A DNA stretch of 64,000 nucleotides from Hymenobacter siberiensis (GTDB lineage: Bacteria > Bacteroidota > Bacteroidia > Cytophagales > Hymenobacteraceae), in assembly GCF_018967845.1 (NCBI RefSeq), contig NZ_JAHLZZ010000001.1, forward strand, positions 310,001 to 374,000, given 5' to 3'. This document shows, in pieces, positions 20,895 through 21,176 of the stretch (position 1 is its first letter; every line of letters begins with the position of its first letter). The translations under genes were made by a program, and so were the position numbers. The notes under the pieces are model-generated. The model searched no databases, had not been told where the DNA came from, and was given only the letters and a program-made list of their open reading frames with translations.

Positions 20895-20924
20895 AAAAAA
20901 GGGCCTTCGCTGTGCGATGGCCCT
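20895..20924 (-). terminator. attenuator terminator upstream of pheA
   Basis: On the minus strand AGGGCC-A-TCGC-ACA-GCGA-A-GGCCCT, a 10-bp stem with one A-A mismatch and a three-base loop, is followed by TTTTTT (20900-20895). It lies between leader peptide 2 and pheA. Confidence 0.9.
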
Positions 20925-20972
20925 GAGTTTGTTGGCAGGCAGTGTAGTGGTTAACACTGGCAACAAAGGGCC
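20919..20972 (-). promoter_or_regulatory. antiterminator of the pheA attenuator
   Basis: On the minus strand GGCCCTTTGTTG (20972-20961) can pair with CAACAAA plus GGGCC (20934-20919, four-base bulge), helped by AGTGT/ACACT inside. This uses the 5' arm of the terminator, so the two structures exclude each other. The upstream arm codes for the last residues of leader 2, so a ribosome at the leader stop (20951) blocks it and a ribosome stalled at the Phe/Tyr codons leaves it free. Confidence 0.75.
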
Positions 20973-21049
20973 GGCTTCTTCAGATAGAAGAAGTAATAGC
21001 AATAGGTAAAAAAGACGTGGTGCAGGGTGGTCATCGAAAAACCGGGCAT
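20951..21049 (-). CDS. Phe/Tyr-rich leader peptide 2 of the aromatic operon
   Basis: ATG 21049 opens 32 codons ending TAA at 20951. Residues 10-25 read HHVFFTYCYYFFYLKK: eight Phe or Tyr in ten codons. It is preceded by GGGAGG (21065-21060) 10 bases before the ATG and followed by an antiterminator/terminator pair. Its codon content matches the products of the operon (Phe and Tyr), as in the pheA leader of enteric bacteria. Charged tRNA-Phe and tRNA-Tyr levels would set where the ribosome pauses. An internal ATG at 21034 is an alternative start. Confidence 0.88.
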   Translation of the reverse strand: MPGFSMTTLHHVFFTYCYYFFYLKKPALCCQC

Positions 21050-21122
21050 TAAAAAAGCACCTCCCGAAGAACGAGCGGCGCTGGAGAAGTTTGTGGGAGT
21101 TAGCTACAAACGGCGGCTCGTT

Positions 21123-21176
21123 CTACGCGGTGGCGTAGAAGGTATAATAGCCAAAAAAGTAGCGCGTCTGGAACAT
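21123..21176 (-). CDS. Phe/Tyr-rich leader peptide 1 of the aromatic operon
   Basis: ATG 21176 opens 17 codons, MFQTRYFFGYYTFYATA, ending TAG at 21123: eight of 17 residues are Phe or Tyr. It lies about 14 bases after the expected start of transcription from the promoter at 21196-21226. Downstream, AACGAGC beginning at its stop can pair with GCTCGTT (21070-21076), and GGGAG (21099-21095 in plus coordinates) can pair with the CTCCC/GGGAG at the start site of leader 2. It may be a second sensing stage. Confidence 0.75.
   Translation of the reverse strand: MFQTRYFFGYYTFYATA

Follow-up and report, generated by a model that had tools for sequence, protein, structure and literature searches.

The pheA operon of Hymenobacter siberiensis is very probably preceded by two complete ribosome-mediated transcription attenuators arranged in series, as judged from the sequence and its comparison with relatives. 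Within the window, by which we mean the whole 64,000-nucleotide stretch analysed here, both attenuators lie on the minus strand and fit within about 280 bases (21176-20895). A sequence-only reading of this DNA had described one complete attenuator; all of its parts proved real, but the element is the second of two in series. A further Phe/Tyr leader, with its own predicted antiterminator and terminator, lies directly upstream and was absent from that reading. This leader came to light when the sequences ahead of pheA in relatives were searched for small open reading frames (sORFs) rich in Phe/Tyr codons, which occurred at two positions. A single Phe/Tyr attenuator looks ordinary for the class, and the series arrangement, kept over most of the genus, appears to be the part that deserves attention.

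The operon begins with pheA (prephenate dehydratase, PF00800; 19951-20871, minus strand), followed on the same strand by a class I/II aminotransferase gene (PF00155; 18605-19807), tyrA (prephenate dehydrogenase, PF02153 and PF20463; 17715-18560), and a gene for a DAHP synthase-chorismate mutase type II fusion (DAHPS/CM; PF00793 and PF01817; 16447-17529). This gene order is common to relatives and was unchanged in the named Hymenobacter loci long enough to show it. The earlier description of a four-gene Phe/Tyr operon is thus borne out by domain matches and by the order kept in relatives.

The downstream attenuator encodes leader peptide 2 (LP2; MTTLHHVFFTYCYYFFYLKKPALCCQC plus stop, 27 codons; 20951-21034, minus strand). 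It had been read as a 32-codon peptide (21049-20951, minus strand), the translation of which places FFTYCYYFFY at codons 13-22. That peptide, the antiterminator, and the terminator are all present where they had been placed, but the start at 21049, one base past the U-run of terminator 1, is not the conserved one; relatives keep the ATG at 21034 (MTTLHHV...). Within the reading frame, CTTCTTC (20993-20987) is predicted to pair with GAAGAAG (20981-20975) in a stall-site hairpin (20975-20993, minus strand), for which both folding and covariation speak: its end pair is C-G in 34 cases, G-C in 4, and U-A in 3, and 92.5% of cells are paired. This hairpin would explain the conserved Lys-Lys of LP2 and, since it ends just before the antiterminator arm, need not compete with that arm. 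Antiterminator 2 (20919-20972, minus strand), predicted from folding and from the comparison of own with swapped arms described below, joins GGCCCTTTGTTG (20972-20961) to CAACAAACTCAGGGCC (20934-20919). The latter overlaps the 5' arm of intrinsic terminator 2 (20895-20924, minus strand), which consists of a covarying hairpin at 20924-20900 (-16.5 kcal/mol) and a run of six U (20900-20895). Over the 98 nt from 20990 to 20893 the folding energy is -31.9 kcal/mol, where shuffled versions average -20.3 (z = -4.24), and the same stretch without the terminator 3' arm takes up the antiterminator fold (z = -4.79). In ribosome-placed folding of the window, antiterminator 2 is only mildly favored (0.52 with the ribosome stalled versus 0.39 at the stop codon).

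The upstream attenuator encodes leader peptide 1 (LP1; MFQTRYFFGYYTFYATA plus stop, 17 codons; 21123-21176, minus strand), which is kept in relatives. Folding and covariation point to a 1:2 stem (21121-21140, minus strand) between TTCTACGC (21140-21133), at the Phe13-Tyr14 codons, and GCGTAGAA (21128-21121), around the stop codon. Because this stem spans both sites, a ribosome stalled at Phe13-Tyr14 would disrupt it, as in the classical four-segment design. Antiterminator 1 (21070-21122, minus strand) is predicted to pair 21122-21108 with 21083-21070, on the same kinds of evidence as antiterminator 2. Intrinsic terminator 1 (21051-21082, minus strand) is formed by AGCGCCGCTCG and CGGGAGGTGCT (21082-21056; -14.2 kcal/mol) with six U behind them (21056-21051), and it too covaries. 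The 141-nt leader of attenuator 1 gave a folding z of -2.36 (4/200 shuffles equal or better), and the piece ending before the terminator 3' arm gave -3.93; pieces of terminator 1 alone folded like shuffles (z -1.00 and -0.40, with 31 and 57 of 200 shuffles equal).

Conservation was assessed in a genus sample in which 107 of 120 genomes were matched. Two of these were excluded (G114, a weak 34-residue match, and G107, the main match of which was without the N-terminus), and 105 were read. The 13 genomes that gave no pheA match with this protein include near-complete ones and may have lost pheA or carry a very divergent copy. Pooling with named loci (excluding the partial L040 and L041) and merging of identical regions reduced 146 loci to 108 distinct regions, 105 of which are from Hymenobacter or from MAGs labelled Hymenobacter or Hymenobacteraceae. 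Two leaders precede pheA in 82 of these 105 regions and one leader in 23. Both leaders reach at least six Phe/Tyr in ten codons in 80 of the 82 tandem regions, and L113 and L135 each have one leader at five.

The sample beyond Hymenobacter comprised 137 regions: all 32 matched genomes of other genera in the family, 64 of the 67 matched in other families of the order (G204, G239, and G199 excluded), 13 of 20 in other orders of the class, and the best-scoring 28 of 77 in other classes of the phylum. In the family, leaders are present in 4/4 regions of g5, all of them tandem, in 8/8 of g3, one of them tandem (L245), in 7/8 of g4, and in 12/12 of g6. Other families of the order have leaders in 5/64 regions at a score of at least six, with five more at five of ten taken as background; the other orders of the class have them in 11 of the 13 sampled (10 single and one tandem, L292). 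The 28 regions ahead of pheA sampled from other classes, which were the best-scoring ones and mostly from few families, contained no such leader. Phe/Tyr leaders also occur in the named outsiders L039 (Chitinophagaceae), L044 (Chitinophagales), and L045 (Prevotella); no terminator was called in L045, and a second upstream sORF in L039 has a weak terminator only. The tandems of L245 and L292 may represent independent origins of the same design.

Codon content sets these leaders apart. Among ATG-initiated sORFs of 8-60 codons on both strands of the window, LP1 (seven) and LP2 (eight) are the only ones with at least six Phe/Tyr in ten codons. In 36 named Hymenobacter or Hymenobacteraceae loci (L003-L038; 725,612 bases, both strands), 60 sORFs scored at least six, and all were pheA leaders. 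A chance origin was rejected on this rarity and on the fold z-scores. Over the 82 Hymenobacter pairs, LP1 contains on average 3.7 Phe and 4.0 Tyr, and LP2 contains 4.8 Phe and 4.0 Tyr. Both residues occur in the final five codons of the run in 81/82 LP1 and 77/82 LP2 peptides, so a shortage of either Phe or Tyr alone should halt the ribosome at about the required position. In the Phe/Tyr columns, codon position 1 is near-invariant, and position 2 (Phe to Tyr) and position 3 (synonymous) vary. A Shine-Dalgarno-like site was found ahead of LP1 in 2/82 and ahead of LP2 in 0/82 of these pairs; the phylum Bacteroidota is largely without Shine-Dalgarno starts.

A terminator was called where a hairpin reached -6 kcal/mol or better and a T-run of three or more followed. 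By this measure, terminators stand behind LP1 in 82/82 and behind LP2 in 81/82 Hymenobacter tandem regions. The exception is L006, the LP2 of which is without a stop codon, its peptide extending to 51 codons through the terminator region. T-runs of at least five follow in 79/82 (LP1) and 81/81 (LP2), and median terminator energies, other genera included, are -17.1 (LP1) and -15.4 kcal/mol (LP2).

As the antiterminator register shifts by one column between clades (judged by eye), fixed-column counting was replaced by a comparison of own with swapped arms, using one representative per cluster (alignment score of about 0.72; L174, L245, L292, L163, and L039 are representatives from outside Hymenobacter) and 5,000 permutations. 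Own antiterminator arms paired better than swapped arms at LP1 (-13.7 versus -10.0 kcal/mol; z -4.6, n = 12), at LP2 (-16.5 versus -13.8 kcal/mol; z -5.3, n = 20), and at single leaders (-14.0 versus -8.4 kcal/mol; z -8.5, n = 20). The corresponding terminator z values were -6.0, -8.1, and -10.7, and the real value was reached by 0/5,000 permutations in each of these six tests. Helices seen at LP1 were AACGAGC/GCTCGTT, GTCGGG/CCCGAC, GTCGAG/CTCGAC, and CCGAGG/CCTTCGG. Applied to the 1:2 stem, the same test gave p = 0.0002 for LP1 (12 representatives), a marginal p of 0.025 for single leaders, and a negative result for LP2 (p 0.85), where the cut arms did not correspond to the position of the LP2 hairpin.

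Covariation could be counted directly for the remaining stems. In the LP1 1:2 stem, 3/8 pairs changed on both sides and 89.1% of cells were paired; for this stem and the terminator together (31-region alignment), 92.2% of cells were paired, and five pairs had both partners changed, where shuffles averaged 2.0 (0/500 as high). In the LP2 hairpin and terminator (48-region alignment), 93.3% of cells were paired and both sides had changed in 29 cells against a shuffled mean of 10.4 (0/500 shuffles), but as many LP2 pairs with such double changes (five) arose in 143/500 shuffles. Kinship alone can lift such counts over shuffles without any structure, but helices slid along the LP1 and LP2 alignments were 18-73% paired, which speaks against a kinship artefact here. 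The sequence-only reading had proposed a search of Hymenobacteraceae relatives for conserved Phe/Tyr codons and covarying stems; both are present, and they back the attenuator logic and the dual sensing of Phe and Tyr that it had put forward.

These results also bear on whether only one of the two attenuators works, with the other being the decaying relic of a duplication. Such decay would fit the 23/105 Hymenobacter regions with one leader, the L006 LP2 with neither stop codon nor called terminator, and the 19 nt common to the two terminator tails of L018, as could follow from recent copying. We consider it unlikely, however: antiterminator and terminator covary at both leaders, terminators follow both almost without exception (82/82 and 81/82), and a relic would hardly last across tandem regions whose PheA identities range over 59-100%. 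Two working attenuators remain the preferred reading, although two are not essential, because 23 Hymenobacter regions have one.

The history of the tandem state was followed on a tree of 98 columns of the PheA N-terminus, in which 77/158 inner branches are open and f11-f19 rows are included as outgroups. On this weak tree the Hymenobacter and g5 rows (86 tandem, 23 single) cluster with an SH-aLRT of 92, and the tandem label changes seven times, two of the changes being forced by well-supported branches. Single-leader rows fall within the genus in several places, and L245 stands apart on a long branch. One gain with several losses fits this tree without being proved by it. Since the commonest single leader within Hymenobacter, MFSNRYFFGFYYFTPPA, resembles LP1, LP2 is probably the leader lost in that type. 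Descent of the two attenuators from one duplicated element was looked for but not demonstrated, with the bases after the two U-runs matching at 0.44 within and 0.39 between genomes. In L018, the tails of terminators 1 and 2 share 19 identical bases at the U-run (CTTTTTTATTGCCCAATTC), as after local gene conversion or duplication. In L013, L016, and L018, long inverted repeats of about -72 to -82 kcal/mol lie between attenuator 2 and pheA and resemble small mobile repeat elements.

Folding with a ribosome placed on the leader is consistent with a switch at each position. A ribosome placed at the last Phe/Tyr codon is predicted to leave the terminator 5' arm sequestered (probability > 0.5) in 81/82 LP1 and 76/81 LP2 leaders of Hymenobacter; one placed at the stop codon does so in 2/82 and 8/81. 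The LP1 effect is strong relative to shuffles (on average 5.5% of shuffles as high). The LP2 effect is weak against dinucleotide shuffles (mean 0.63 versus 0.53, an average of 29% reaching the real value) because the arms are GC-rich, and the case for the LP2 antiterminator rests on covariation. Ribosome offsets in this analysis were cut at 13 nt by design; left uncut, most LP2 offsets in Hymenobacter lie at 11-14 nt and most LP1 offsets at 15-20 nt, and 12 are outliers. The ribosome footprint used for the geometry was taken from general background. A footprint of 12-15 nt from the P site is cited in an account of Salmonella (PMC3641672).

We propose that, in each attenuator, a ribosome would translate a short peptide with seven (LP1) or eight (LP2) Phe/Tyr codons in ten. 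With ample charged tRNA-Phe and tRNA-Tyr, the ribosome would reach the stop codon and mask the antiterminator 5' arm, and the terminator would form and act in vivo. When Phe or Tyr is scarce, the ribosome would stall on the last Phe/Tyr codons with its leading edge about 13 nt ahead; the antiterminator arm would then be exposed and could pair with the terminator 5' half, and RNA polymerase would continue. The LP2 ATG follows the terminator 1 U-run after 16 nt in the window (median 19, range 5-30, in 86 tandem regions), and because this gap is so short, a polymerase at LP2 would normally be past terminator 1. Barring a promoter within attenuator 1, the second switch would be reached only past the first, and the operon would be on only if both switches permit transcription. 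Because a polymerase at switch 2 would have passed switch 1, the two read-through probabilities should multiply, which would give less leak and a steeper and wider response. As an arithmetical illustration, an assumed rise in read-through from 0.1 to 0.7 would be 7-fold for one attenuator alone and 49-fold for two in series.

A private LP2 promoter inside attenuator 1 would make the switches parallel rather than serial, and the sequence is compatible with one. We regard such a promoter as quite unlikely, given the gap of just 5-30 nt between U-run 1 and the LP2 start codon in the 86 regions. In addition, the 130 nt ahead of LP2 contain no copy of TAnnTTTG, which we take to be the Bacteroidota-type -7 motif, in any Hymenobacter region. 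This test is weak, since LP1 must have a promoter ahead of it and the motif is rare (5) there as well. No clear promoter motif was found in the sequence upstream of LP1. Upstream of single leaders, TAnnTTTG occurs 27 times within 150 nt, and 18 of these begin 21-30 nt before the ATG, a position that suggests a promoter with a very short 5' end.

That the leader might instead be a T-box, a riboswitch, or a protein-bound RNA in which the Phe/Tyr codons are incidental would suit a structured RNA with terminators, but this is very improbable: what is conserved is Phe/Tyr content, with synonymous and Phe-to-Tyr exchange; the stall geometry fits translation; and no Rfam family matched this region at its gathering score, the five matches obtained at E values up to 10 lying far under theirs. 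A T-box, riboswitch, or other Rfam element was rejected for the window, where only a tRNA passes its gathering score. Membership in the Rfam Phe_leader family (RF01859) was likewise rejected, with 0 matches in the genome itself at E <= 0.001 and no gathering-score match in the window; among 14 control genomes, those of E. coli and L. lactis matched, one over the cut-off. The label "pheL-type" given earlier to attenuator 2 therefore holds by analogy and not as family membership.

The anatomy of both leaders has the elements of a ribosome-mediated attenuator, namely a Phe/Tyr-rich reading frame, intrinsic-type terminators, and a predicted arm-sharing antiterminator (weak at LP2 on folding alone). 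In the enteric pheL/pheA, trpL, and hisL systems, a short reading frame rich in codons for the end product is followed by an antiterminator and a terminator with one arm in common, and the stop codon places a terminating ribosome over the antiterminator. The Hymenobacter leaders are like these in their short reading frames, arm-sharing antiterminator/terminator pairs, and blocking stop codon positions. Unlike them, Hymenobacter has two attenuators in series, would sense both Phe and Tyr in keeping with an operon that makes both, and shows neither an RF01859 match nor a Shine-Dalgarno-like start.

Tandem leaders have been described elsewhere. The Salmonella mgtCBR leader is presented as a singular example of tandem attenuators that respond to different signals, ATP and proline, which act additively through stem-loops unlike intrinsic terminators (PMC3641672). 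As outlined in that source, it resembles the Hymenobacter arrangement in having two short reading frames in one leader, one of which senses proline by stalling. In Hymenobacter, by contrast, both peptides appear to read the same Phe/Tyr signal, so that the two-signal character of mgtCBR is not seen, and each is followed by an intrinsic-type terminator. The mefA/msrD system has two erythromycin-responsive leader-peptide attenuators, MefAL and MsrDL, on one transcript in what its authors call a "double-lock system" (PMC10314930). According to that account, the two systems share same-signal attenuation by two leader peptides on one transcript. They differ in the signal, amino acids versus a drug, and in placement, both Hymenobacter attenuators preceding the first gene and MsrDL lying after mefA and acting on msrD only.

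Within the phylum, work on Flavobacterium psychrophilum has reported hints of leader-peptide attenuation before amino acid operons; it also describes structured elements that precede pheA and hisG, are shared among Flavobacteriaceae, and have no Rfam matches (PMC9723704). The pheA element resembles ours in its gene and in matching no Rfam family; it differs in that the account, as far as it goes, describes no peptide, stem, or tandem arrangement. Small reading frames reminiscent of leader peptides are mentioned for Bacteroides (PMC7366714), and a survey of leader genes covers many phyla, including Bacteroidetes, with no tandem case in the portion consulted (PMC4833913). The surprise attached earlier to an attenuator in Bacteroidota is thereby weakened, given this Flavobacteriaceae precedent, leaders in much of the class as sampled, and a trp leader in the same genome. 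Among the matches listed in titles and abstracts of the open-licence literature, we found neither a same-signal tandem attenuator before a biosynthetic operon nor a report on such Hymenobacter leader peptides. This is not proof that the tandem arrangement is novel, because subscription papers were outside that scope.

We are evenly divided on the broader proposition that serial same-signal attenuation is a conserved design over most of the genus, in which two independent tests of translation on a single nascent transcript, with multiplying outcomes, would make a thresholded, low-leak switch for Phe/Tyr synthesis. Such a switch would be the translational equivalent of riboswitches in tandem and would stand as evidence of tight transcription-translation coupling in a phylum with few Shine-Dalgarno starts. 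If it is true, the 82 distinct Hymenobacter sequences would show what a second attenuator for the same signal buys, with the 23 single-leader relatives as controls. The ribosome would have to trail RNA polymerase closely enough to decide termination twice, and to do so without Shine-Dalgarno-like starts, which would bear on the reach of transcription-translation coupling outside Proteobacteria. The operon, which makes both Phe and Tyr, would also have in its leaders a simple sensor of the two.

Other amino acid genes of the same genome were inspected for comparable leaders. The 600 bases preceding the ilvD domain showed none. Upstream of hisG (L299), a possible leader with HHDHH (MTIFTALLCAVAAAPLTGRRAVAGVHHDHHLWEAGLCAGC) has no T-run of at least five behind it, and a his leader is not established. 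Upstream of trpE (L300; G000:C1, around 3422400), MNSHRTSQAWWWQLRNIGPACLCA plus stop forms a trp leader built in the same way and is followed by AAAGCCCGGCCCACAGCCGGGCTTTTTTT; it is the only such leader in the 600 bases inspected.
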